Source: a virus. Taken from it: a DNA stretch of 32,847 nt. Made by a program: the position numbers and the translations under genes. Location: positions 1-32,847 of the IMG/VR virus record IMGVR_UViG_3300036846_001359; one strand, 5' to 3'. Of this stretch, positions 7,437 to 32,826 are shown in pieces. Numbering within the stretch: the stretch's first letter is position 1; every line of letters starts with the position of its first letter. Below the pieces are notes generated by a model that worked only from the letters and a program-made list of their open reading frames with translations, was not told where the DNA came from and did no database searches.

Positions 7437-8048
7437 GTGCCCCAAATAATAGCTTTCATCGGTCCCCGTGGCTGCGGCAAGTCCACCGCCGCCATGATCC
7501 TCACCCACCAGTGCGGCTTCCTCCCCCTGCCCTTCGCGGCCCCGGTCAAGGAGATGGTTGCCGCCCTCCTGCACTATCAGGGTGTGCCCCCCTACAGCAT
7601 CCAGGCCATGCTCCTCGGCAGCCGCAAGGACGCCCCTTCAGTCTACCTCGCCGGCCAATCGCCGCGCCACGTCATGCAGACCCTCGGCACCGAGTGGCGT
7701 GACCTGATCGACCGCACCCTCTGGTCCGGTATCTGGCAGTCCCGCCTCAAGCTTCTCGGCTCCCGCAATGTCGTCGTCGACGACATGCGCTTCCACCATG
7801 AAGCAGCTGTCGTCAGAGCCGCAGGCGGCAAGATATTCACCATCAGCCGGCCCGGCCACCACACCTGTGACAAGCACATCTCTGAACAAGAGTGGAAGGA
7901 GATCGAACCCGATGGCGTCCTGGTCAACGACGAGGGCCAGCAGGACGCGATGTTCGACCAACTCAGCGCCCTCGGCATCGTCCCCCTCAACACCATCCCG
8001 CACGACGTTCCCCTCCCCCTCGACATCCCCATGGGAAAGCGCCACTAG
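7437..8048 (+). CDS. Deoxynucleoside monophosphate kinase
   Basis: GTG 7437 follows GAGGAG. The 203-residue product starts with a P-loop, IAFIGPRGCGKSTAAM (Walker A at residues 9-17), and continues with an FAAPVKEMVAALL segment typical of phage dNMP kinases, a YLAGQSPRHVMQTLGTEW lid/substrate region (the M-Q-x-x-GTEWRR-like motif is characteristic of the T4 gene 1 type) and VVVDDMRFHHEA. The C-terminal part has ISRPGHH and VNDEG. The enzyme phosphorylates dNMPs to dNDPs to supply phage DNA synthesis. It stands directly before the DNA polymerase gene, consistent with that role. Confidence 0.88.
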   Translation: MPQIIAFIGPRGCGKSTAAMILTHQCGFLPLPFAAPVKEMVAALLHYQGVPPYSIQAMLLGSRKDAPSVYLAGQSPRHVMQTLGTEWRDLIDRTLWSGIWQSRLKLLGSRNVVVDDMRFHHEAAVVRAAGGKIFTISRPGHHTCDKHISEQEWKEIEPDGVLVNDEGQQDAMFDQLSALGIVPLNTIPHDVPLPLDIPMGKRH

Positions 8049-8049
8049 C

Positions 8050-9822
8050 ATGCGCCTGATCCAAGAAGGACCCCGCACTCCAGGGGGAATACTTCTATGC
8101 GGCGAAGCGCCTGGTGCTGAGGAGGATCGCTCCGGGCGGCCCTTCTCCGGCACCAGCGGGTGGGAGCTGGACAAAGAACTGGCTGCCTCTGGCTTGCTCC
8201 GCTCTCAACTCTTCATCACCAACGTCTGTCACGAGCGGCCGCCAGGCAACGAGATCGAGAAGTTCTTCGCCACCAAGACCGAGGCCAAGAATGCCCCCAA
8301 GCTCGACACCCTAAGCCTTGCCAATGCAGCCTCTCGCCTAGCTGCTGACATCACCGTGATCGCGGGCCGGTGTGCCCGCCGCCCGGTGATCGAAGGCCTC
8401 GTCCAGCTGCAAAAGGACATCGACGCCCTCCGGCCCCGCCTGATCATCGCCATGGGCAACACCGCCCTCTGGGCTTTGACCGGCCACACCGGCATCCGTT
8501 CTTGGCGTGGTAGCATCCTGGAAGCGTCCGGCGGCCCAGTGGACGGAAAGGGGATCAAACTTATCCCCACTGTTCACACCGCCTCGGTCCTCCGTGAATA
8601 CCAGTGGAAGGGGATCGTCATCCATGACCTCAAGCGCGCCCTCCGCGAGTCCCGCTACCCCGAAGTGCGACGGCCCACCTGGAGCTTCACGGTTCCGGGT
8701 TCACTCCGCGAGCTACGGGACTGGCTGGGAGACAACTTCGCTACGCTCCCCGAAGACGCCTACGTCACCGCCGACGTGGAGAACGACTACTCCACCGACC
8801 GCGTCCATGACGCTCGCATTTATTGCCTTGGCCTTGCTGTTGATCCTCACACTGCTTGCTGTGTGCCTTTTGCTCATCGCGCCGGCGACAACCCCCATTG
8901 GTGGGCCTCTCCAGAGGAGGAGCGGGACGCCGTGCTCCTCCTCCGCGATTACTTGCGACGCCGGCCCGTCCTCTTCCACAACGGCCTCCACGACTGTCAG
9001 GTCATAGCCCACAACTGGGGTTGGATGCCCCGCTTCACCCACGACAGCATGGTCGCCCAGCACACCCTTTTCCCGGCCCAGCTCGGCGGCAAGATCGACC
9101 CCATCACCGGCCGCACCAGCAAGAGCGGCAGCAGCTACAGTCTTCTGTTTTGCTCCTCGATCTACTGTGACTACCACCGTTACTGGAAGGACGACGGCAA
9201 AGGCTGGGACCCGGGCATTCACGACGAACTCCAATACTGGCACTACAACTGCGAGGACCTGGTGCGAACACACGAGGTGTTTGCCGCGCAGCGGCAAATG
9301 CTTCACAGCAACAAGCTGTGGGAGCAGTACGAGTTCCTGATGAGCCTCTTCCCCGCTGTCTTCGAGATGATGTTCTCCGGCCTCGCCTTCGACGACACCG
9401 CTCGCCGCACCTACCGGGCCGACGTTGAGCGGCAGATCAAGGAGGCCCAGGCTTGGATCAACGAGGCCGTCGGCCACCCGCTCAACGTCGAGTCCTCCCC
9501 CCAAATGCAGCGCCTCTTCTACGAGGACCTCCGGCTCAAGCCCATTCTCCACCGCAAGACCCGCCAGCCGACCGTCAACGACCACGCCCTGGAACGCTTC
9601 AAGATCGTCCGCCCCATCCTGCGGCCCCTGGTCGAGCGCATCCAGGCGGTGCGCTCCCTCGCCGTCTACAAGGAGAACTTCCTCGACATGCGCCTTTCCC
9701 GCGATGGCCGGCTACGCCCTGCGATCAACGTCGCCGGCCCCGAAACCTACCGCTTCTCGATGAACCACACCGCCCTCGGGGAGGCCGGCAATCTCCAGAA
9801 CCTGCCACGAATGGAGGACTGA
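8050..9822 (+). CDS. DNA polymerase A, N-terminal half: UDG-like domain, 3'-5' exonuclease, polymerase thumb
   Basis: ATG 8050 starts one base after the kinase stop; earlier starts in the frame lie inside the kinase gene. The 590-residue product has a family-4-like uracil-DNA-glycosylase domain (GEAPGAEEDRSGRPFSG near residue 18; NVCHERPPGNE; VHTASVLR near 176), then an intact DEDDy exonuclease (VTADVEND; LFHNGLHD; YNCEDLV), then the PolA thumb and start of the palm, ending at NLQNLPRMED. In bacterial Pol I this NLQNIP segment directly precedes motif A, so the polymerase active site is missing here and is encoded in the gene at 10230. The two products probably assemble. The cysteine pair that begins family-4 glycosylases is absent, so an Fe-S cluster is doubtful. 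Confidence 0.9.
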   Translation: MRLIQEGPRTPGGILLCGEAPGAEEDRSGRPFSGTSGWELDKELAASGLLRSQLFITNVCHERPPGNEIEKFFATKTEAKNAPKLDTLSLANAASRLAADITVIAGRCARRPVIEGLVQLQKDIDALRPRLIIAMGNTALWALTGHTGIRSWRGSILEASGGPVDGKGIKLIPTVHTASVLREYQWKGIVIHDLKRALRESRYPEVRRPTWSFTVPGSLRELRDWLGDNFATLPEDAYVTADVENDYSTDRVHDARIYCLGLAVDPHTACCVPFAHRAGDNPHWWASPEEERDAVLLLRDYLRRRPVLFHNGLHDCQVIAHNWGWMPRFTHDSMVAQHTLFPAQLGGKIDPITGRTSKSGSSYSLLFCSSIYCDYHRYWKDDGKGWDPGIHDELQYWHYNCEDLVRTHEVFAAQRQMLHSNKLWEQYEFLMSLFPAVFEMMFSGLAFDDTARRTYRADVERQIKEAQAWINEAVGHPLNVESSPQMQRLFYEDLRLKPILHRKTRQPTVNDHALERFKIVRPILRPLVERIQAVRSLAVYKENFLDMRLSRDGRLRPAINVAGPETYRFSMNHTALGEAGNLQNLPRMED

Positions 9823-9823
9823 C

Positions 9824-10246
9824 ATGCCTGACCCATCCCCCCGAAACGTGACCCTGAGGGCTGCACCGCCACTTTGCACCGACTGCCGCTGGTGCCTCAT
9901 CGAAGAGGCCAGCTACGAGGAGCCGCAATGCACCTCGCCCAAGCAGCCGATGTCCGTGGTCGACGGCAAGCCCCGCTGGCCCGAGTGCTACCTCCAGCGC
10001 GGCGAGGACGACGAGCGTGCCACCTACCACCACGACCTCTGCCGCACCGACGGCCGCTACTTTGAGCCGCGCGAAGGCGAACCCGCAAAGACCCACGACG
10101 AGCAGATACGGGACGCCACCATCGAAGAGTGCCAGGCAACGATCCTTGGGGGCAGCTTCTTGCACGACGCTGCACCGGCCAAGCAGTTCGCCAAGGAAGT
10201 CGTGGAGGCTCTCGACAGGATCAAGTCCGATGCCCTTCGAACCTGA
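9824..10246 (+). CDS. Small cysteine-rich (putative zinc-binding) protein between the polymerase halves
   Basis: ATG 9824 lies one base after the polymerase N-half stop, and its 3' end overlaps the start of the C-half by 17 bases. The 140-residue product has CTDCRWC near residue 18, further cysteines in PQCTSP, PECYLQ and HDLCRTDGRYFEP, and a helical C-terminus. This CxxC...C...C...C-x-x-x-G-x-YFEP arrangement resembles a widespread class of small phage proteins of unknown role, presumably zinc-binding. It has no HNH, GIY-YIG or LAGLIDADG motif, so it is not an obvious homing endonuclease although it sits exactly at the split. Confidence 0.75.
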   Translation: MPDPSPRNVTLRAAPPLCTDCRWCLIEEASYEEPQCTSPKQPMSVVDGKPRWPECYLQRGEDDERATYHHDLCRTDGRYFEPREGEPAKTHDEQIRDATIEECQATILGGSFLHDAAPAKQFAKEVVEALDRIKSDALRT

Positions 10247-10985
10247 CCTCCCCCCGATCCGCTCGCTCATCAAACCGGACCCCGGATGGGTATTAGTAGA
10301 CGCAGATTTTGATCGCGCGGACGCCCAGATCGTCGCGTGGAGCGCCAACGAGCCGGCCCTCAAGGTCATCTTCCAGGAGGGCCACGATGTTCACACCGAG
10401 AACGCCGCCCTCGTCTCCGGCTGGGCCAAGAAGCCTGTCTCCCGCCAAGCCCTCAAAGCTGGCCTCCACCTCACCAACTACGGCGGCAAGGCCCGCACCC
10501 TCGCCTCTACCCTGGGCACCACCATCGCCATCGCCGAAGCCTTCCAGCACTACTGGTTTGGCAAGTATCCCGGCATCCGGCGGTGGCACGAGAGCACCCT
10601 CACCGTCCTCCGGCTCCAGCACTACATCCGCAATGTCTGGGGCTTCCGCCGCTTCTACTTCGAGCGGCTCGACGGCCACAACGCCGACCTCCTCCTCCCC
10701 CAGGCCCTCGCTTGGCTCGGCCAATCAGGCGTCGCCATCGCCATCAACCACGCCATGCTCCAGGTCAGGGCCAAGTTCCCCCGCACTGACGTGCGGCTCA
10801 AGCTTCAAGTGCACGACAGCCTCCTCCTAGAGGTCCGCGCCGACCTCTGCCCCGGCATCTTCCCCGAGATCATCCAGGCGATGCAGGTCCGCATCCCCTT
10901 TGCCGACCCGCTCTACATCCCTGTCAGCCTCAAGTTCAGCAAGAGCAGCTGGGGCGAGGTCCACAAATGGAGCCAAGCAGCATGA
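10230..10985 (+). CDS. DNA polymerase A, C-terminal half (palm and fingers with motifs A, B and C)
   Basis: ATG 10230 overlaps the preceding gene by 17 bases. The 251-residue product begins just before PolA motif A (LVDADFDRADAQIVAW), continues with motif B on the O-helix (RQALKAGLHLTNYGG) and motif C (LQVHDSLLLEV), so all catalytic residues of the polymerase are here: the two Asp residues and the Arg/Lys pair. Compared with E. coli Pol I, the position of Glu710 is Asp and that of Phe762 is His, a pattern I associate with a clade of phage polymerases. It lacks thumb and exonuclease, which are in the gene at 8050, and it must pair with that product to be a normal enzyme. Confidence 0.92.
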   Translation: MPFEPDLPPIRSLIKPDPGWVLVDADFDRADAQIVAWSANEPALKVIFQEGHDVHTENAALVSGWAKKPVSRQALKAGLHLTNYGGKARTLASTLGTTIAIAEAFQHYWFGKYPGIRRWHESTLTVLRLQHYIRNVWGFRRFYFERLDGHNADLLLPQALAWLGQSGVAIAINHAMLQVRAKFPRTDVRLKLQVHDSLLLEVRADLCPGIFPEIIQAMQVRIPFADPLYIPVSLKFSKSSWGEVHKWSQAA

Positions 10986-22331: not shown

Positions 22332-24395
22332 TTAGGCCGTCACATTGATCGAAGAGGGGCTGATCTGCGACAGCGCCAGGTTCTTGCTCAGGGCCGCCAA
22401 GGCCGTGTTCAACTCGTTGTCCGCCTCAAGCTGCAACTTGGCCACGCCCAGATCGGCCTGGCTGATCGTCTGCGCGGCATTGGTCACAGCGTTGGCCGCA
22501 TTGGTGACGCCGCCGGCCGCCCCTGTCTCGGTACTCACCGCTTGATTGAGGCCCTGGATACCATTCAAGATAGAGGTTACGCCGGCCAAGGCATTCCCGC
22601 TCGCGACACCGGACCCCTGCGCCTCCTGGATGCCCTGGCTCACCAAGCTACTCAAGATGCCCGGTATCTGGGCGATGATGTTCCCGCTCACCGCCCCGAC
22701 ATCGGCACCTTCGGTCGAGGACCCCGACAGCCCTAGGTTTGCATACCTGTTCGTGACGCCTCCCCGGGCCGTGCTAAGTGCGGACCGGATCGAGTCAGCG
22801 ATACCAGGGGGCAACTGCCCGGTTGTTTCGGCCGACAACAGCGGTATGGCGGCCTGACCCTCCCGTGCCGACAGGTCGCTCTGCTGCTGGATGATCGGCG
22901 ACGCACTCTGGATCGCCGTCGCCAGTCCGGTCTGCGCGGCTGGTATAAGTTGCTGGGCGGCGGTCTGGAAGCTCTGGTTGGCCGGTCCTTGTGCCGCGAA
23001 AGCATTGGCTCCGGCTTGCGTCGGCGCATTGGTCGCCTGCCCCGGTACCACCGGCTTGTTGAGGAAGTTCATCCCCAGCCCGCCAACCAGCCCCGCCAGG
23101 CTCAACAGGCCCTGGTTCTCGTTGGCCCAGGCCTTGAGGTTGCCAAACAAACCCTTGTCCGCACCTGCCTCGTCTGCTGTCACACTGCTCGACAAGTCCG
23201 TCCCGCTCACAGTTCCCTTGGTTGCTCCCGGGAAGAACTCCCCACCACTCGTGCCTGCGGCACTCGTGGTTGGCGCTGTGCTCGTGGTAGTTGGCGGTGT
23301 GGTGGTAGGTGGTGTGACAGCCGCCGTGTTGACCGGACCCGTTGTGGTTGCCGTGGCGGGCGGAGTCGTCGACGGCGGCGCAGCGGTGGTCCCGGCAGTC
23401 GATCCCGACACATTGGTGGTGGTGTCCAGCCCACCAATGCTGGGGGCCTGAAGCTCGATGGGAGCGGCACCCGGCGCGGGTGGAGCGGCGGCGGCCCCGC
23501 CAGTCACCAGCGAACTAGGAGCCGTCGTCGGCCCCCCTCCAGGCAGTGGAGTCACGCTCCCCACCCCCATTGGCCCGCCGGTCGCCGGATCAATCCTCCC
23601 ACCTGCATTAGGAGCCTCGCTCAACGAAGGGAAGTCCGCCCTCGGCCCTGCCGGAGCCAGCCCAGTAGGCGCTTGAAGAGGGGGAAGCTCGCCGGCCTGG
23701 GCCGTCCCGATGGGGTTGATCGCGCTGAGCAATCCACTTGGCGATGGCAGAGGGATGCCAAAGAGGCTCGGCCCGGCCCCACCTGCCGCCGCCTCGGGGG
23801 CCGCTGCTGCGACATTGACATCCGGCAAGGCAATCCCTGCCGCCGTCGCATCTGTCGCCGGCAGGTAACCAAACGCCTGGAGGAACTGTGCCGCCTCAGC
23901 CGGGGTAGCAAAGCTGCCCGACGCGAACGCCTCACCTATCAGTTGCGGCGCGAATTGCTCCCCCACCGCCGCTGTCTCGGCCCCCAGCTGACCGGACCCC
24001 AGCACCTCCCCCAGTGCCTGCGTCTGACCCAGCTCCCCTGCCCCGCCCGGCTCCTGCAACAAGGTGGCGGCCTTAGCCAGGTTCGGCTGGATTTGGTTGG
24101 CGATCTGCTCCGGGCTGTAGGTAAAGCTGGCATCGGGTCCCAAGCCCGCCGCGCCGCCTATGCCACCTTCGACACCACCGAGGGCACCAATGGCGCTCGG
24201 TATGGCCCCACCAAGCGCCAGCGCTCCCGCTCCCACACCACCTAGGATGTCTCCCAGTCCGACAGTCGCTCCGAGGACCTCGGGGGCCACCGCGCTGACG
24301 GCCACCTCCGGCAGGATAACCTCCGGCAGGATGGCGGCCGAAAAGATGTAGCACCGGAAATGTGCGTCGGGATCAGTCCACGGAAAGCTTTTCAT
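22332..24395 (-). CDS. Alanine/glycine-rich internal virion protein, 687 aa
   Basis: ATG 24395 has AGGGGAAG upstream and overlaps the acetyltransferase gene by 23 bases. The protein is low in charge and rich in Ala, Gly, Pro and Thr, with a Thr/Pro-rich linker (residues about 330-370) joining an N-terminal part to a C-terminal helical domain (ENQGLLSLAGLVGGLGMNFL, AAQQLIPAAQTGLATAIQSA, ADNELNTALAALSKNLALSQ). The C-terminal region resembles small internal core proteins of podoviruses. It is the first of three consecutive large internal proteins, so it may form part of the ejected core or trans-envelope tube. Confidence 0.7.
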   Translation of the reverse strand: MKSFPWTDPDAHFRCYIFSAAILPEVILPEVAVSAVAPEVLGATVGLGDILGGVGAGALALGGAIPSAIGALGGVEGGIGGAAGLGPDASFTYSPEQIANQIQPNLAKAATLLQEPGGAGELGQTQALGEVLGSGQLGAETAAVGEQFAPQLIGEAFASGSFATPAEAAQFLQAFGYLPATDATAAGIALPDVNVAAAAPEAAAGGAGPSLFGIPLPSPSGLLSAINPIGTAQAGELPPLQAPTGLAPAGPRADFPSLSEAPNAGGRIDPATGGPMGVGSVTPLPGGGPTTAPSSLVTGGAAAAPPAPGAAPIELQAPSIGGLDTTTNVSGSTAGTTAAPPSTTPPATATTTGPVNTAAVTPPTTTPPTTTSTAPTTSAAGTSGGEFFPGATKGTVSGTDLSSSVTADEAGADKGLFGNLKAWANENQGLLSLAGLVGGLGMNFLNKPVVPGQATNAPTQAGANAFAAQGPANQSFQTAAQQLIPAAQTGLATAIQSASPIIQQQSDLSAREGQAAIPLLSAETTGQLPPGIADSIRSALSTARGGVTNRYANLGLSGSSTEGADVGAVSGNIIAQIPGILSSLVSQGIQEAQGSGVASGNALAGVTSILNGIQGLNQAVSTETGAAGGVTNAANAVTNAAQTISQADLGVAKLQLEADNELNTALAALSKNLALSQISPSSINVTA

Positions 24396-24879
24396 CCGAG
24401 GCTTCCCCTATCAAGCGAGTGTAGTTGACTTCACTAATCCTATAGCCCAAAAGCGTGAGGAAGGCATCCGCCGCATTGGCTTCCGTCTTCACCCGGATGT
24501 TGATGATCTGCGCGCCGTACCGTTCTACGGCGTAGCGCTCGACAAAACGGATCAGCGTCCGGGCATGTCCACGATACTCGGGCCGCATGTAATAGACAAG
24601 TGCACCAAGGGTGACGACCCGCTCTTCCGGTTTCGCTAGACTATTGCGGTGCAAGTCCCGGCCAAGAACACCTATAAAATACCCTGCAAATCCCCCTGCT
24701 TCATTACTCGCCACCACCGTCAACAAGCGGCCCGCTGCGGCGAGCATCCGGTACTCTTCATAATGTATACATCGGGTGAAGTGGTCGCGGTAACTGCCGA
24801 CCTCTTGCCAATGAGCGTCCAGCACTCCCTCGATCTCGGGGAGCGCCTCGTCGAATGTCGTGACCCTACAGCGGATCAT
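24373..24879 (-). CDS. GNAT-family N-acetyltransferase
   Basis: ATG 24879 is chosen (ATG 24891 and TTG 24897 are in frame); no start has a good ribosome site, so coupling to the overlapping upstream gene is likely. The 168-residue protein has the GNAT layout: an N-terminal substrate part, a central strand (GFAGYFIGVLGRDLH), the motif V-T-L-G-A-L-V-Y-Y-M-R-P-E-Y-R-G-H-A-R (strand 4 with the acetyl-CoA-binding R/Q-x-x-G-x-A/G loop, here RGHART), then a helix and AADAFLTLLGYRISEVNYTR, typical of the last strands. It would transfer acetyl from acetyl-CoA to an amine; the target is unknown. Acetyltransferases do occur in virion operons of podoviruses. Confidence 0.82.
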   Translation of the reverse strand: MIRCRVTTFDEALPEIEGVLDAHWQEVGSYRDHFTRCIHYEEYRMLAAAGRLLTVVASNEAGGFAGYFIGVLGRDLHRNSLAKPEERVVTLGALVYYMRPEYRGHARTLIRFVERYAVERYGAQIINIRVKTEANAADAFLTLLGYRISEVNYTRLIGEASDEKLSVD

Positions 24880-25390
24880 CGGGGAAGACATCGACAATCA
24901 AGTGCACTCGGCCCTCCGCACCATCATTGCCCGCCGAATGCAAGCTGTGCTTGTCAAAGGCCCCGATCATACCCGCCGGCAGGTGACAGCGCCGCTCTCC
25001 CCAGGCGAGCCACGCACCAGGATTGGTCAACAGCGCCAGGTGATAACGTTCCGTCGCCTCGGCATAGACCCCAATATCAATGTGGGGCGTCACCCGGCCA
25101 CCGGGGGCCAGACGTACCAGCATTGCTCGGCCTGGCCGGCCCTCGGCTCGCAACGCAACAGCTGCAACAGCCTCGGCCAGCACGCCTTGGTAATGTCGTG
25201 TGCCTACCACCTCAAGTTGGTGCAGCACATCCCGTGGCCGGTCACCCGGCTGCCGGCGCAGGAAGATCGTCTCGCTGTCTCGGTGCGGCGTGTAAGGCAA
25301 CCTTTGCCGCCACCGCTCTTCCTGCCACGCCTCCTCTAGCTTGGGCAGCACACCCAGGATCGCCTCAATGTCATAGTTATAACCAAGCAT
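24866..25390 (-). CDS. Aspartyl/asparaginyl beta-hydroxylase-like 2-oxoglutarate/Fe(II) oxygenase
   Basis: ATG 25390 with GGTGGATGAG upstream is chosen; upstream residues to 25474 mirror another gene. The 174-residue protein has a jelly-roll core with VRLAPGGRVTPHIDIGVYAE (His and Asp, iron ligands), RYHLALLTN, WLAWGERRCHLPAGMIGAFD and HSAGNDGAEGRVHLIVDVF, where a distal His and the R-x-H-L-x-V-D ending are typical of the aspartyl-hydroxylase clade. It probably hydroxylates a protein side chain with 2-oxoglutarate and O2. It overlaps the acetyltransferase gene by 14 bases, so the two are co-translated, which suggests successive or shared modification of a target. Confidence 0.85.
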   Translation of the reverse strand: MLGYNYDIEAILGVLPKLEEAWQEERWRQRLPYTPHRDSETIFLRRQPGDRPRDVLHQLEVVGTRHYQGVLAEAVAAVALRAEGRPGRAMLVRLAPGGRVTPHIDIGVYAEATERYHLALLTNPGAWLAWGERRCHLPAGMIGAFDKHSLHSAGNDGAEGRVHLIVDVFPDDPL

Positions 25391-25391
25391 C

Positions 25392-25748
25392 TCATCCACC
25401 GACGAGGACGCCCTGCGCCGCGAACACCTGGTAAACGCTGGTGTGCTCCGAGTAATTGACGCCGACAAAGGCATCGAGGTTTTCTTTGTTGGTGAAGTCG
25501 TACTTGGTCAGGTCGTCCCCCGTCAGACCAAAGGCGGCGTTCATCGCGTTGTGTTTCTGCTGGTGATTTATCAACCAGAAGAACGCGTTGTCGAGCGCCG
25601 GCAACGGATCAAGCGGGATCGTCGGCTGCGGGAAACCGGCAGCAGCAAGCGCGGCGTCGATGTCGTCATGGTCACGTGCATGGGCGAACGACCACGCCGA
25701 CAGTTGCTGTGGCGTGTTGCCTGCTGATAAGATGCCCACGAGCGTCAT
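25392..25748 (-). CDS. Hypothetical virion-operon protein, 118 aa
   Basis: ATG 25748 overlaps the upstream stop as ATGA. The protein has a strand LVGILSAGNTPQQLSAWSFA, a helix with HDDIDAALAAA, a proline-rich link (FPQPTIPLDPLPALD), WLINHQQKHNAMNAAFGL and NYSEHTSVYQVFAAQGV. I recall similar uncharacterised proteins, with a W-x-x-x-HQQ-x-H-x-x-M/F-N signature, in phages and prophages of alphaproteobacteria, near virion genes. The many histidines could bind metal. No function is assigned. Confidence 0.75.
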   Translation of the reverse strand: MTLVGILSAGNTPQQLSAWSFAHARDHDDIDAALAAAGFPQPTIPLDPLPALDNAFFWLINHQQKHNAMNAAFGLTGDDLTKYDFTNKENLDAFVGVNYSEHTSVYQVFAAQGVLVGG

Positions 25749-26926: not shown

Positions 26927-27114
26927 CAGGCCATCCCTGTCTTAACGGCCAGCCACTCCGGGACGCGCATCGTGCCGGCCTCATCCCACTCGCACCGGCT
27001 CTTAGGTAGCCAGACTGCCCGGCGGCCGTCGGCGAACTTCCAGGCAAGCTCCGTCTCGGCAAGGACCTCGCCGTGGAACTCGTGCATCTCATCATCATCA
27101 GAAGGCTGGGGCAT
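26926..27114 (-). CDS. Small conserved-looking phage protein, 62 aa
   Basis: ATG 27114 is chosen inside the end of the tail protein gene (overlap 17 bases); a TTG at 27129 is also possible. The core (EFHGEVLAETELAWKFADGR, AVWLPKSRCEWDEAGTMRVP) resembles short phage proteins with an x-DG-x-x-VWLPKSQ signature, in which a small beta-barrel is expected. No catalytic motif. Function unknown. Confidence 0.65.
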   Translation of the reverse strand: MPQPSDDDEMHEFHGEVLAETELAWKFADGRRAVWLPKSRCEWDEAGTMRVPEWLAVKTGMA

Positions 27115-29386
27115 CGGGGAGCCACGCAAGAGCCATGTAATTGATATTATTCGCGGCCACCGTCGAGGTCAATGTCCAGCCCAGATAGTGTCCCCAGACG
27201 CCTTGTGCATCCTGATATTGGACCGCGAAGCTCCTCCCATACGCACCCGGCGGCGAAGGCATAATGACGCCGGGATTGGGATAGCCGAGGGGGCCGAGGG
27301 GCACATCACCGAACTCCGAGTGGATCACCAACTCATAGTTCATCGACTGCTCGGCGGTCAGGTAGAAGCGCATCGCCCGCTTGGCCTTCAGGGCCGACGT
27401 AGCCCCGTAAAACTTGCTAATCATGGTCTTGGTCAGTGTCACACTAGGCCTGGAGAACATCTGCCAGATATGTTGGTGGTCGGCCCCATAGCCAATGAAC
27501 TGGCCGCCGACGCCGACAGTGGCCAGGTACAACATCAGTTGTTCTTGCGTGGCACTAAACCACTTGAACCCATCCCACAGCAACAGCAGGTTCCTTACCA
27601 GGTTCTGATAGGGGTCCAATACCTGCATCGATATACAATAACATTTGATACCAAAGAGGTGGACTGTGCAGGCCGTCGGCAGGATGCCCGATTGGTCGGG
27701 CAGGTTGTTGAAGAGGTCGTCGAGGTCGGTGCTGATCTTCCTGACACTCGATCCATAGAGGCCATAGATGCCGGTGGGGTTGGCGAAGATGATGGCCTCG
27801 CCAAAGTTCTGGATGGTCTGCGGCCAAATGCAGCCTACCTGCGGGTCCACGTTGGTGACGGTGAAGGTAGTGCTGGTCACGCCGGGCGAGGTGCTCGTCG
27901 CCCCGACGGTCGAGGTGGTCGGGTTGCTGATGGCATTCACCGAACTATCGCCGAACTCGTAGAGGAAGCCCGATGACTGGGCCAGCCCCAGCAGATGGTA
28001 GATCAGGAAGTTGTCGTTGTTCTGGCTTATGATACCCCCAGACGCCGCCGAGAAGTCGGACACGCTGCCGCCGGCCGTCGTATAGCGGAACGTGTTGTTG
28101 ACCATCCACACCCGGTTCTTGAAGACCTGGATGGCCGCTCCGCTAACCGGGTTGGCCCCGCCTTGCGGCATCAACTCGACGGTCGCCGTCGCCACGTTGG
28201 GGTTGCCGCCGACAAAGGTCACCACCGCGTCATGGTAGTCCTGCCCCGGATTAATGACGGTCACGCTGGTGACGACGCCGGCCCCCATGTTGGCCGTCGC
28301 CACGGCACCAAAACCAAACCCGAAGGGATCGGTGATCTGCACCGTCGGCGTACTGGTGTAGCCGGCCCCGCCGTCGGTGACGTTTACCGTGTTGATCCCG
28401 TTGAGGCTGACTACCGCTATACCTGTGGCCGTGTCGCCGCCGCCGGCCGGAGCACCAATGGTCACTGTTGGCGCACTGGTGTAGCCGACGCCCGGGGTCA
28501 CTACCGAAATCTGAGTGATGCTGTTGGCGGTGCCGGCGGCCACAGCTGTCGCCCCGCTGCCGCCGCCCCCGGTAAAGGTCACTGTTGGCTGGTTAGTGTA
28601 ACCTGTGCCGCCGTCTACGATCTGGACGCTAAGCACCCCGCCGCCGCCGATGACGGCATCGCCTGTCGCCAGGCGGTCGGCATTGCCACCGCCGGTTATC
28701 AACACTTGCAATGAACCACCGTCATGGGGGCCATACCCGGTCCCAGGATTAGTCAGGGTGATACTCGTCACTGAGCCGTTGACAATCTGCGAGGTGGCCG
28801 TCGCCCCTGTCCCACTACCCCCCACGATGGTGACCGTCGGCGGGCTCGTATAGTTCTGCCCCGCCGACGTGACCGTCACCTGTGGGGCAAGAGTCCCTGG
28901 CCCATAAAGCACCAACCCGTCCCAGATATGATAGCTGTCAGCGCTGCCGATACACAGATACTTCGCCCCGTAGGTGGCGCTAACAGGGAGGGTCGGGTTC
29001 AGGTTGAAGGTGCCCGCCGGCGCAATCTGTTGCTGCGTGCCACCCGGTATCTGCACTTCGACCGCTGAGCCATCGCTGAGGAACACACAGAACAACTCGG
29101 TGCCGGCGATGAAATTGGGGGGGCCGAGGACAAAGAACTGATAGGCCGCAATGCTGAGGGGGCTGCTGGTATAAATCGGGGTGCTTGCCGAACTGGCCAG
29201 GAAGGCCATCTGCCCGTTGCCGATCCACATGACGTTCTCAAGCCACGCGAAGTCGGCATCGTCGATCGCCGTCGGCGACCCCTTAACCTCCATCCCCTTG
29301 AACGGGAACGGGCTGAACAGCTCAAGCTCGCCGGGCAGCCCCGTCGCCAGCCCAGCGCCCCGGGCAGCTTGCTGCCCTTGGGCCAC
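27098..29386 (-). CDS. Tail tube/stabilisation protein with six inserted GYTS-type repeats
   Basis: GTG 29386 is the only start available in frame before the N-terminal domain; a 13-bp hairpin lies just upstream. The N-terminal part (ELFSPFPFKGMEVKGSPTAI, DFAWLENVMWIGNGQMAFL) and C-terminal part (VWMVNNTFRYT, LYEFGDSSVNAISN, NPTGIYGLYGSSVRKISTDLDDLF) match podovirus tail tube or tail-stabilisation (P22 gp10-like) proteins that close the neck. Residues about 168-405 are an insert of six repeats (VDGGTGYTNQPTVTFTGGGG, TPGVGYTSAPTVTI, TDGGAGYTSTPTVQI and others) that split that body. The protein sits below the head-tail adaptors in the neck. Confidence 0.8.
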   Translation of the reverse strand: MAQGQQAARGAGLATGLPGELELFSPFPFKGMEVKGSPTAIDDADFAWLENVMWIGNGQMAFLASSASTPIYTSSPLSIAAYQFFVLGPPNFIAGTELFCVFLSDGSAVEVQIPGGTQQQIAPAGTFNLNPTLPVSATYGAKYLCIGSADSYHIWDGLVLYGPGTLAPQVTVTSAGQNYTSPPTVTIVGGSGTGATATSQIVNGSVTSITLTNPGTGYGPHDGGSLQVLITGGGNADRLATGDAVIGGGGVLSVQIVDGGTGYTNQPTVTFTGGGGSGATAVAAGTANSITQISVVTPGVGYTSAPTVTIGAPAGGGDTATGIAVVSLNGINTVNVTDGGAGYTSTPTVQITDPFGFGFGAVATANMGAGVVTSVTVINPGQDYHDAVVTFVGGNPNVATATVELMPQGGANPVSGAAIQVFKNRVWMVNNTFRYTTAGGSVSDFSAASGGIISQNNDNFLIYHLLGLAQSSGFLYEFGDSSVNAISNPTTSTVGATSTSPGVTSTTFTVTNVDPQVGCIWPQTIQNFGEAIIFANPTGIYGLYGSSVRKISTDLDDLFNNLPDQSGILPTACTVHLFGIKCYCISMQVLDPYQNLVRNLLLLWDGFKWFSATQEQLMLYLATVGVGGQFIGYGADHQHIWQMFSRPSVTLTKTMISKFYGATSALKAKRAMRFYLTAEQSMNYELVIHSEFGDVPLGPLGYPNPGVIMPSPPGAYGRSFAVQYQDAQGVWGHYLGWTLTSTVAANNINYMALAWLPDAPAF
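28171..28885 (-). repeat. Six GYTSxPTVT-type repeats inside the tail tube protein
   Basis: Residues about 168-405 of the 762-residue protein are about 40-residue units of the form V-x-x-x-G-x-GYTSxPTVTI-x-GGGGxGATAxA-x-x-G-x-V-x-x-I. On the + strand each unit shows as GTGTAGCC-type bases followed by GCC-rich sequence. Units 2 and 6 are the most diverged. Confidence 0.85.
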
Positions 29387-29390
29387 GGCG

Positions 29391-29431
29391 CGCTACGCTC
29401 GCCGTTTGTGGCAATGATGGCGAGCGTAGCG
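29391..29431 (-). repeat. 13-bp hairpin just upstream of the tail tube start
   Basis: CGCTACGCTCGCC (29391-29403) pairs perfectly with GGCGAGCGTAGCG (29419-29431) around a 15-base loop. It fills the gap between the adaptor stop at 29437 and the GTG at 29386. No T-run follows on the - strand, so it is more likely a translation or mRNA-stability element than a terminator. Confidence 0.7.
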
Positions 29432-29436
29432 AGCCA

Positions 29437-30381
29437 TCAGGCCATGCCGGCGGAGTTGTAATAATCGGGTATGATGGTCCGACCCGACGCCGTCATCGAG
29501 GCGAACCTCATTCGCATCATGTACTGGGCGTCCATCTGCGGCGCTCGCCCTGCCAGGTCAGGCTCACTGAGGCAGGCGATCTCGGCCGCCTTATACGCTA
29601 CCGCCAAGTCGAAGGGCCTGGGTATGGCGTCGTATATCTCGTTGTTGGCCATGTCCAGGTCGACGGGTGTGCACGTGCAGTCCAGGTCCATCTGGGCGTT
29701 CTGGGCTGGGATGGGCCACAGGTAGAAGCTCCCGTTCGTTCCCAGCTGGTAGGGTGACCACACACGGGGGAAGCCCTGAGCAGCGACGTTGTACGACCTG
29801 AGGTAGGCTTGGAAGTCGCCCCATGTCATGTACCTCATCATCGGCTTCATCGACCCCCACGACACCGCGCAGTTCCTGATGTTGACGATCTCGTTGAGGC
29901 CCGGGCTTGCCGCACTCCCCCTAAGAATGGGATTAAGCGACTGATGCGTGTACACTTCCTGCCCGAAGATGGCCTGAGCGAAGGGCATCAGCGTAAAGGT
30001 GGCCGTCGCCCCCGTACCGCCTCCCCCCACAAAGTTGATGGCCGGCGTCGAGAAGGTTGAGTAACCGTCGCCCGGCGTGATCAACTGTATAAAGGTGACT
30101 TGGCCACCACCAATGAATGCCTGGGCCGTCGCGGCCGTGCCCAACTGTGGGGGCGAGATCACAACCTGTGGCACACTTGTGTACCCGGAGCCGCCGTTGA
30201 CCATGGTGAGATCCCCAATCCCTGCCGTGCTAGGGACCAATCCTCTACAGCACTCACCTTCAAGGGCGACAAAGACCCGCGCCTCGTTGACATACTGGAC
30301 CAGATCGTCGATGTTGAAGCGCTGAAAGGTCTGATCGGTCAGCACCCTCTGGACCCGTTGGAGATACTCGGCCAGCTGCAT
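29437..30381 (-). CDS. Head-tail adaptor (tail tubular A-like) with two inserted GYTS repeats
   Basis: ATG 30381 overlaps the stop of its paralogue (TAATG). The 314-residue protein begins like the neighbouring 271-residue one (MQLAEYLQRVQRVLTDQ / FNIDDLVQYVNEARVFVALE), the helical N-terminal pattern of podovirus head-tail adaptors, and ends with a helical part (FDLAVAYKAAEIACLSEPDL, QYMMRMRFASM). Residues 58-131 hold two GYTS-type repeats (NGGSGYTSVPQVVI; TPGDGYSTFSTPAINFVGGG) in place of a short loop in the paralogue. It probably sits between portal and tail tube. Confidence 0.8.
   Translation of the reverse strand: MQLAEYLQRVQRVLTDQTFQRFNIDDLVQYVNEARVFVALEGECCRGLVPSTAGIGDLTMVNGGSGYTSVPQVVISPPQLGTAATAQAFIGGGQVTFIQLITPGDGYSTFSTPAINFVGGGGTGATATFTLMPFAQAIFGQEVYTHQSLNPILRGSAASPGLNEIVNIRNCAVSWGSMKPMMRYMTWGDFQAYLRSYNVAAQGFPRVWSPYQLGTNGSFYLWPIPAQNAQMDLDCTCTPVDLDMANNEIYDAIPRPFDLAVAYKAAEIACLSEPDLAGRAPQMDAQYMMRMRFASMTASGRTIIPDYYNSAGMA
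29988..30210 (-). repeat. Two GYTS-type repeats inserted in the adaptor
   Basis: Residues 58-131 of the 314-residue adaptor: MVNGGSGYTSVPQVVI and ITPGDGYSTFSTPAINFVGG with a GGGGTGATATFTL end, the same unit as in the tail tube protein. The paralogous adaptor at 30381-31196 lacks it at the equivalent place. Confidence 0.85.
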
Positions 30382-31196
30382 TAGCCACCGCCCTGTCCAC
30401 CACCTTGCCCTTGAGCAGGCGGCCCCGCCCCAGCACCCCTCTGAGGCGGGGCCATCCCTGGTAGGCGACGCGCACTCAGTCCACCAGGGAAGGCATTCTG
30501 CTCCGGTAGCGGCGTCACGATGCCGCGTGCCCGGGTCATGAACAGCTCATAGACTTGAAGGGCCTGCTGGGCCAGCTCGTTGAGCCGGGCATCCATGAAG
30601 CCCAAATAGAGCGCATAAAGAGGCACTGCGTCAGTGAAGGGTCCCGGTATCGCCTCCGGATCTGCTTCCACTTCCAGGTTCTCCGGCCCCCAGGTGCCAT
30701 CCACCAGCAGCAGGTAGACAGCATTCGGCGGGTTGATAAAGAAGCTACCGGCAGCCACGACACCCCCTGAAACACCGCCCTGCGGCAAGGTGGGTTGCCC
30801 CATCATAAAGGGTGCCCAGACCCGTGGCGGCCCCGGCGCTCTCTGTGCCATCCCCAATTCATAGAAGTTGAACCAGTCCCAGTTCCGCTTGACCAGCGTG
30901 ACCTGGGGTGTCCGGCCACTGGTTAACACCAGTCCCGGATCATACTGGATCGACCTGGGTGTAATCAGGTTGGCGATGCCCACCGGCACCATCGGCACCG
31001 TGACACTACTATTCGAGTAGGATGTCTGGCTAGGGACCGTCGGGATCGCGCCGATGCCCCGGATGCTCTCGCTCTCCAGGGCAACCTGCTGCCGTGCCTC
31101 GTTGATGAAGCCGGTCAGGACCGACTGCGGATACGCAAGTCCAGCCTGATCGTGCAGGAGTATTTGCAGCGCATTAAGGTAGGCATTGAGGGCCAC
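30381..31196 (-). CDS. Head-tail adaptor paralogue without repeats, with a disordered Pro/Gly-rich C-terminus
   Basis: GTG 31196 with GGCGAG upstream. The 271-residue protein shares its N-terminus with the next gene (ALNAYLNALQILLHDQ / VLTGFINEARQQVALESESI), a helical adaptor fold, and has a beta-rich middle (QVTLVKRNWDWFNFYEL, AGSFFINPPNAVYLLLVDG, WGPENLEVEADPEAI) and a helical end (LYALYLGFMDARLNELAQQA). The last 40 residues are disordered, Gly/Pro/Gln-rich. Two adjacent adaptor-like genes probably arose by duplication; they might form one mixed ring or two stacked rings. Confidence 0.78.
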   Translation of the reverse strand: MALNAYLNALQILLHDQAGLAYPQSVLTGFINEARQQVALESESIRGIGAIPTVPSQTSYSNSSVTVPMVPVGIANLITPRSIQYDPGLVLTSGRTPQVTLVKRNWDWFNFYELGMAQRAPGPPRVWAPFMMGQPTLPQGGVSGGVVAAGSFFINPPNAVYLLLVDGTWGPENLEVEADPEAIPGPFTDAVPLYALYLGFMDARLNELAQQALQVYELFMTRARGIVTPLPEQNAFPGGLSARRLPGMAPPQRGAGAGPPAQGQGGGQGGG

Positions 31197-31205
31197 GGCT
31201 CGCCA

Positions 31206-31676
31206 TCAACTGTAGGTGCCCACGCCGGTGCTAATCAGGTTTGCTGTCGTCGGCGATATGATCTGCACGACGAAGTCCCGGGTCGTGTTGTTGGCTATGG
31301 TGAGCAGTCCTCCGGTAAAGGTCCAGCCGCCACCCGCCGGCAGCACCACCGTAATGATCTGCCCGGAACCAGCATTCACGATCCGCAGCCGATACCACCA
31401 GCCGACGATGTCCTGCTGGGCAAAGGGTGCCCCCTGCGCCGCCACGATGGCGGCCACCGTCGGCAGGGTGTAGTTGACGCCGCCGACCTGCGCGCCATTC
31501 AAGATTATGGTGACATGACTCGACCCACCCGTCGGCACCCCGGTGAGGTCCTGGGGGGAGCCGAGGATGTTGCCCACCGTGCTATTGGTGCTGACCTCGG
31601 CGAACGGCCCAAAGAAGGGGCCGGTGAAGACCCCTTCGGTAAAGGCCAGCGTCCCACTGATCCCAGGCGTTCTCAT
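31206..31676 (-). CDS. Small beta-rich virion protein, 156 aa
   Basis: ATG 31676 follows the upstream stop by four bases. The protein is Gly/Thr/Val-rich with a beta pattern throughout (GTLAFTEGVFTGPFFGPFAE, HVTIILNGAQVGGVNYTLPT, WWYRLRIVNAGSGQIITVVL, TRDFVVQIISPTTANLISTG), consistent with a small jelly-roll or decoration protein. Between head-side genes and the adaptors it may be a head decoration or neck protein. It lacks the GYTS unit. Confidence 0.7.
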   Translation of the reverse strand: MRTPGISGTLAFTEGVFTGPFFGPFAEVSTNSTVGNILGSPQDLTGVPTGGSSHVTIILNGAQVGGVNYTLPTVAAIVAAQGAPFAQQDIVGWWYRLRIVNAGSGQIITVVLPAGGGWTFTGGLLTIANNTTRDFVVQIISPTTANLISTGVGTYS

Positions 31677-31680
31677 CGGA

Positions 31681-32826
31681 TCAACCCGTCATGGACTGAA
31701 TGTAGATGATGTCGAGGTTGCCGCCGACGGTCGCCGCGACAGTCGCGCCGGTCGTCTCTGTGCCGGACCCCGACAGGATCGCCAGGTTGGGGATGGCCGA
31801 GAAGCCAATGCCCCAGTCCTCAACGGCGAGCGGCGGCGTCGTGCCGCTTGGCACGATAGCTCCGCCCGACAGTGCCGGCACGATCTTCGCCTGCCGGGGT
31901 AGGATCAGACCCGCTTCGATGCTCGGGTTCACATGGATTGGCGTGGCAGCCACGATGCCGCCGGTGGAGATAAGGGCAGTGCCCGCCGGGACGCCGGTGC
32001 CACCAGACGATACAGTGTAGCCGGTGACGGAGAAGTTCATCACCGCCGTGGCCGCAGCCGCCGTGCCGCCACCACCGGCAAACGCCAACGTCGGCACCGC
32101 CGTTTGGGGCAGGCCCGGGTTGGTCATGACGACGGCCGCAATCGTCCCGGCACCTGTCAGGCTCAACGTCATCGAGTTGGGGGTGTTCTGGACACTCGCA
32201 CCGGCCCCATTGATGGCCGATCCGGTATCGTTGGGATCGGTCACGAACGTAGCCAGCGGAGGACTCGTGTAGCCGGCACCTTGGTTGTCCACCACGATAG
32301 TATTGACCGCGCCTCCCGACAACGTCGTGTGGGCAGTCGCTTGAACTCCACCAGGTGGAGGGGCACTGACCAACAACCTCGGAGGAATGGTGTAGCCGGA
32401 GCCTGGGTTCGCCGGAAGTGTCTGCGAGGTGTTCACCAAGCCGCCGACAATCGCGCTGAACTGTGCGCCGCCGGCACTCGCCGTCACCAGTGGCGCACTC
32501 GTATAGCCGGAGCCGGCCGCCGTCAACAACGCTCCCAGCACACACCCGCTGAGGTTGGCGATCCGCAGGTTGACGCCGTCGCTCTCGACGTAGATCCAGC
32601 CGTTCCAGGGCCGGGGACAGGTCTTCCACTCTCCGGTCGGCCCAGCGTTCGACGCGGTGTTCACATTCCACACCGGGTCGAAATACTGGAGGAAGCTGTA
32701 CTGGCCCAGGTGAACAGCGTTGGCACCCGCCGGCAGAACCCGCGATGCCCCAGCAGCGAGGCTCTCGGTGTTGGTGGTCGCCTTGCCGAGGGTGAGGGGA
32801 AGCCCGGTGCCGCGAATAGTAGGCAT
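31681..32826 (-). CDS. Beta-rich virion protein with about four GYTS-type repeats, 381 aa
   Basis: ATG 32826 has GGGAG upstream. The first 95 residues form a beta domain (MPTIRGTGLPLTLGKATTNT, VHLGQYSFLQYFDPVWN, WNGWIYVESDGVNLRIANL). Residues about 100-265 hold about four repeats of the same GYTS type as in the tail tube and adaptor proteins (TAAGSGYTSAPLV; PGSGYTIPPRLLV; NQGAGYTSPPLATF; TNPGLPQTAVPTLAF). The C-terminal 110 residues are again beta-rich (ILPRQAKIVPALSGGAIVPS). Probably a head or neck surface protein; no named family is recognised. Confidence 0.75.
   Translation of the reverse strand: MPTIRGTGLPLTLGKATTNTESLAAGASRVLPAGANAVHLGQYSFLQYFDPVWNVNTASNAGPTGEWKTCPRPWNGWIYVESDGVNLRIANLSGCVLGALLTAAGSGYTSAPLVTASAGGAQFSAIVGGLVNTSQTLPANPGSGYTIPPRLLVSAPPPGGVQATAHTTLSGGAVNTIVVDNQGAGYTSPPLATFVTDPNDTGSAINGAGASVQNTPNSMTLSLTGAGTIAAVVMTNPGLPQTAVPTLAFAGGGGTAAAATAVMNFSVTGYTVSSGGTGVPAGTALISTGGIVAATPIHVNPSIEAGLILPRQAKIVPALSGGAIVPSGTTPPLAVEDWGIGFSAIPNLAILSGSGTETTGATVAATVGGNLDIIYIQSMTG
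32031..32526 (-). repeat. About four GYTS-type repeats in the 381-residue virion protein
   Basis: Units at residues 104, 141, 181 and 236, plus a fainter one near 268 (SVTGYTVSSGGTGVPAG). The DNA shows three copies of a GTATAGCCGG/GTGTAGCCGG core (near 32268, 32390 and 32502 on the + strand). Confidence 0.75.

Follow-up and report, generated by a model that had tools for sequence, protein, structure and literature searches.

In known phages, the nozzle sits as a hexameric ring at the end of the tail, and tail fibres dock on a region of the adaptors of the T7/SU10 type. Virion proteins can also carry promiscuous Ig-like domains, small beta-domains that are appended to or inserted in unrelated proteins in variable number and for which a role in binding virions to glycans or host capsules has been proposed. 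In the nozzle of phage SU10, four Ig-like nozzle domains were inserted between blades 2 and 3 of the propeller; the blunt end of the tail was formed by the first two, and each of the four straightened at genome release (PMC9509320).

Here, we analysed the whole of a viral stretch of 32,847 bases (IMG/VR virus record IMGVR_UViG_3300036846_001359), hereafter the window. Similar to SU10 (Kuravirus; gp17, PDB 7z47, 7z4b and 7z4f), it encoded an adaptor and nozzle gene pair, and its 762-aa protein was predicted to have a propeller and platform body in which the first propeller blades were followed by an inserted string of beta-domains. Unlike the SU10 nozzle domains, the inserts formed a sequence family that had no PDB match and was present in 0 to 6 copies, and the same domain was also found in an adaptor and in a capsid-adjacent protein.

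The gene block and its repeat unit

Five minus-strand genes encoded, in this order, a 381-aa protein, a 156-aa protein, a 271-aa adaptor, a 314-aa adaptor and the 762-aa protein. Their features were as follows (units are numbered within each protein).

31681-32826, minus strand: putative virion protein, 381 aa, four units (alignment, model)
32299-32532, minus strand: 381-aa protein pair domain 1, units V1 and V2 (profile)
32029-32298, minus strand: 381-aa protein pair domain 2, units V3 and V4 (profile)
31206-31676, minus strand: 156-aa protein without the module (profile scan)
30381-31196, minus strand: adaptor 1, 271 aa, paralogue of adaptor 2, without the module (BLAST E 4e-6)
29437-30381, minus strand: adaptor 2, 314 aa, SU10_adaptor family, one inserted pair domain (PF24175, E 2.8e-7)
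29983-30210, minus strand: adaptor pair domain, units A1 (30091-30210) and A2 (29983-30090) (profile)
27098-29386, minus strand: nozzle protein, 762 aa (predicted structure, Foldseek and VIA matches)
28628-28879, minus strand: nozzle pair domain 1, units T1 (28763-28879) and T2 (28628-28762) (profile, model)
28388-28627, minus strand: nozzle pair domain 2, units T3 (28511-28627) and T4 (28388-28510) (profile, model)
28157-28387, minus strand: nozzle pair domain 3, units T5 (28265-28387) and T6 (28157-28264) (profile, model)

The 762-aa protein had no Pfam match. However, the best Foldseek and VIA matches of its AF2 model (pLDDT 77.6, 30 sequences in the alignment) were the nozzle proteins of SU10, T7, P22, A4 and Pa223. 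Namely, VIA aligned 450 residues with the SU10 nozzle 7z4b (Z 22.1, rmsd 3.1; Foldseek E 1.9e-15) and 443 residues with Pa223 9nwi (Z 23.5, rmsd 3.2), and 411 residues were aligned with P22 gp10 (Z 19.8, rmsd 3.5). Since the model matched the nozzles of short-tailed phages, we named this protein a nozzle rather than a long-tail tube. The initial annotation had labelled it a tail tube protein, but body residues 20-761 strongly matched nozzle propellers and no tube protein was present among the structural matches listed. Its predicted structure is that of a T7/SU10-type nozzle with a propeller and platform fold, in which residues ~20-160 and 419-762 form the body. Its overall fold was common with T7 gp12, P22 gp10 and the nozzles of cyanophages A4 and P-SCSP1u (Foldseek, VIA-align), although P22-type nozzles were short (~470 aa).

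The 314-aa adaptor, which was encoded directly upstream of the nozzle gene in the window and its relatives, matched the SU10_adaptor family (PF24175) above the gathering cut-off of 27 with 31.6 bits, but differed from it by the added pair domain. The 271-aa adaptor was its paralogue.

The repeat unit had the consensus VTVTNPGxGYTSxPTVTIxGGGGxGATATA. A hand-cut alignment and a profile located 12 units in the window, of which the 762-aa protein had six (residues 170-410), the 314-aa adaptor two (residues 58-133) and the 381-aa protein four (residues 99-266). The profile scan gave 0 units in the 271-aa adaptor and the 156-aa protein, and no more units were found in the rest of the window. When each protein was left out of the profile in turn, its units were still recovered with E-values of 8e-17 (762-aa protein), 3e-11 (adaptor) and 3e-7 (381-aa protein), while the best decoy among 1000 shuffles had an E-value of 0.15 or worse. 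BLAST comparisons among the three proteins were also consistent with homology. Thus, the numbers of units proposed initially (six, two and about four), as well as their absence from the two other genes, were right.

Unit number and insertion site in the nozzle

All nozzle units formed one contiguous insert that separated the N- and C-terminal parts of the body. Among the 146 non-identical nozzle relatives in the matches listed, the most frequent numbers of units were 6 (81 nozzles), 4 (30) and 0 (13), followed by 10 (7), 8 (4), 2 (4) and 12 (1). The first large scan was ranked with the repeats in the query and hence was biased toward six units. The second scan used the C-terminal body alone as the query and gave, among the 65 nozzles in the matches listed, four units in 23 nozzles, none in 12, six in 11, ten in 6 and eight in 4, with few others. 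The module had been described as expandable, and this description was borne out by the range from 0 to 12 units among the nozzle relatives listed.

The number of units was even in 140 of the 146 nozzles from the listed matches and odd in 6. The median distance between the N- and C-terminal body was 29, 90, 176, 254, 331.5, 412 and 492 residues for 0, 2, 4, 6, 8, 10 and 12 units, respectively, so that the insert grew by ~39 aa per unit or ~80 residues per pair. In several nozzles with odd numbers, the insert length was near the median of the next even number (259 and 268 versus 254 residues; 327 versus 331.5), which suggests that degenerate units were missed there by the sequence profile. Since the nozzle counts were even, changed between relatives and followed steps of ~80 residues, we considered the module to be a two-unit domain that was gained and lost as a block. 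Moreover, three strands per unit were predicted throughout the nozzle array, where the model had moderate confidence (pLDDT ~49-83 by block). As modelled, the structural unit is probably a pair of the units initially described, namely an all-beta domain of two times three strands and ~80 residues. Had the pairs been copied as blocks recently, odd and even units would be expected to be more similar within their classes than between them, but they were not. Therefore, the pairing was based on the counts, the spacing and the strand number.

Relatives of the window's nozzle at 93-95% and down to ~55-56% identity all still had six units, and the number varied among those farther away. Across a quick tree of 79 nozzle bodies, in which odd counts were entered unaltered, we counted at least 24 changes in unit number, and a tree built with more care from the 33 bodies closest to the window had 12 changes. 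Two nozzle bodies that were 89% identical over 470 residues (L168 and L178) differed by an insert of ~154 residues, present in one and absent from the other, and two bodies with 86% identity (L139 and L152) were one pair apart. This indicated that the block was dispensable for the nozzle body and moved in pairs.

In the nozzle model, the predicted strands ahead of the insert amounted to about two blades. As judged from this strand order rather than from superposition, the insertion site is apparently equivalent to that of the SU10 nozzle domains. In a small group of three other phages (L109, 10862-12640; L110, 10841-12604; L111, 10574-12331), the same site held a different module of ~75 residues instead of GYT pairs (..SSTTDVVNGMMVTDAQGDIPAHTLVVSHTSNSAVISQAA.. 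in L109 and a similar one in L111), suggesting that the nozzle site accepts unrelated domains.

A probable role of the pair domains in nozzle, adaptor and 381-aa protein

We consider it rather probable that the string of pair domains at the nozzle is a spacer and contact surface at the outer or distal tail tip, in which blocks of pairs are gained and lost. The domains would be strung in after about two propeller blades, where SU10 has its Ig-like nozzle domains, so that the array would lie distally or on the outside of the tail tip, with its length set by the domain number. One pair domain is carried by one of the two paralogous adaptors, near the fibre-docking region of T7/SU10-type adaptors, and two are incorporated in the capsid-adjacent 381-aa protein, with whole-pair blocks added and removed over time. 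More tentatively, a large group of short-tailed, uncultured phages might use this undescribed two-unit beta-domain as a length-adjustable segment of the tail tip, present 0 to 6 times at one nozzle site and tuning the reach or grip of the tail end, with the same domain also decorating an adaptor and a capsid-adjacent protein. Nozzles with 0 to 6 domains at a single site, some of them with nearly identical bodies, form a natural series suited to the question of how the tail-tip length affects infection.

The pair domains might alternatively be putative surface domains that bind carbohydrates or mucus, by analogy with phage Ig-like domains, and we regard this as unlikely. The module resembled promiscuous Ig-like domains in its size, its insertion in unrelated virion proteins and its variable number among relatives. 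As would be expected for promiscuous surface domains, it was also present in diverse virion proteins (at least 20 PHROG families), among them those of fibres, baseplate and head. However, it differed from Ig-like domains by its two-unit internal repeat and its GxGYTSxPTV...GGGGxGATA core; none of the Ig sequence models in Pfam or NCBIfam matched it, and no binding family was matched by sequence. In addition, glycines, the GYT-turn tyrosines and one alanine made up the invariant or near-invariant residues of 43 pair domains, and these look structural at the sequence level. Conservation over 60 pairs was 0.57 in the array, similar to the N-terminal nozzle body (0.56) and slightly below the C-terminal body (0.67), unlike typical receptor-binding parts. 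The conservation of the array is more in keeping with a structural role as spacer or contact domain than with a receptor binder that changes fast, although it is not decisive.

It was much less probable that these proteins had an old beta-rich fold without modular behaviour, of which the repeats were simply the ordinary body. The unchanged unit number of the window's close relatives agreed with this possibility. However, the nozzle had 0 to 12 units at one site, and nearly identical nozzle bodies existed with and without the insert. A similar picture emerged for the adaptors: in the alignment, the pair domain was inserted after residue 57 and was absent from the 271-aa paralogue and from most relatives, and the adaptors of relatives had either one pair or none, always at one site.

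The 381-aa protein was a different case. Across its family about four units (two pairs) were constant, and since the family kept about two pairs, the module looked like an ordinary part of the body in this protein. Thus, the ordinary-body reading was refuted for the nozzle and the adaptor, where the number or presence of units varied, and largely holds for the 381-aa protein. In relatives, the gene adjoined the major capsid gene (capsid gene in L001). The four units lay between the terminal parts in the model (pLDDT 76.5), and these parts were jelly-roll-like at low confidence with weak structural matches (Z up to 7.3). A structure search of the PDB with the model gave no convincing match, and its structural matches in a viral library were probably due to common repeats. 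Two tandem paralogues of the 381-aa protein were present side by side in four other phages (L106, 3220-5394; L108, 5352-7527; L145 and L155).

At loci with a gene of the 381-aa type, nozzles tended to have 0-6 units when the adaptor carried the module and mostly 6-12 when it did not. Although this raw table was striking, we did not infer a trade-off between adaptor and nozzle modules from it, because the adaptor state changed only three times on the tree, too few independent changes to judge it by.

Spread of the module and other features of the window

The best matches of the nozzle and 381-aa domains were their counterparts in the same protein class of other phages. Outside close relatives, the adaptor domain was best matched by nozzle domains of distant phages. 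Within the lineage of the window, the adaptor, nozzle and 381-aa domains matched one another with ~37-58 bits and those of distant phages with ~36-74 bits, and units of different nozzles were mostly more similar when they shared a position than when they did not. Since same-class matches were best and same-position units mostly more alike, recent exchange within the operon was unsupported.

It was therefore least probable that recent duplication or recombination passed the module from gene to gene in this operon, for which the initial annotation had suggested duplication and recombination: three neighbouring genes bear it and short direct DNA repeats (30-51 nt, 63-83% identity) connect the copies, but the repeats are weak and coincide with the conserved protein core, own-lineage neighbours matched no better than distant phages, and relatives down to ~55% identity had the same copy number. 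An old spread of the module, perhaps between phages, fits the sequence comparisons better.

Many structural proteins of Synechococcus and Prochlorococcus phages carried the module, although a search of phages with a 70-residue consensus of it had no hits, probably because of the low-complexity filter. It was shared by PHROGs 701, 19630, 460, 5342, 2885 and 708, and their names (virion structural, Hc2, fibre, baseplate wedge) describe the carriers. Two single ORFs of ~2400 aa in other phages (L114, 3936-11150; L115, 3762-11174) had roughly 20 units each. The module was not found in a search of plasmids, and it had no match in Pfam, NCBIfam or the PDB sequences (any chain). We found no description of the motif in the literature searched, which covered few subscription journals, and the module is apparently without a name. 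A widespread virion module that has no Pfam or NCBIfam model probably misleads automatic annotation; one nozzle relative was labelled 'baseplate wedge initiator' in GenBank.

Elsewhere in the window, the plus-strand region 7768-10985 encoded a fusion of a uracil-DNA glycosylase domain with the first part of a family A DNA polymerase (PF00476 positions 6-132). The rest of the polymerase (PF00476 positions 141-369) was encoded by a separate later ORF (10017-10985, plus strand), and ~430 bases and a 140-aa ORF (9824-10246) were located between the two parts. This divided polymerase may represent a split gene, an intervening element or a sequencing error. Finally, on the minus strand (24866-25474 and 24373-24897), a gene similar to aspartyl/asparaginyl beta-hydroxylases (PF05118) was located beside a weak match to GNAT acetyltransferases.
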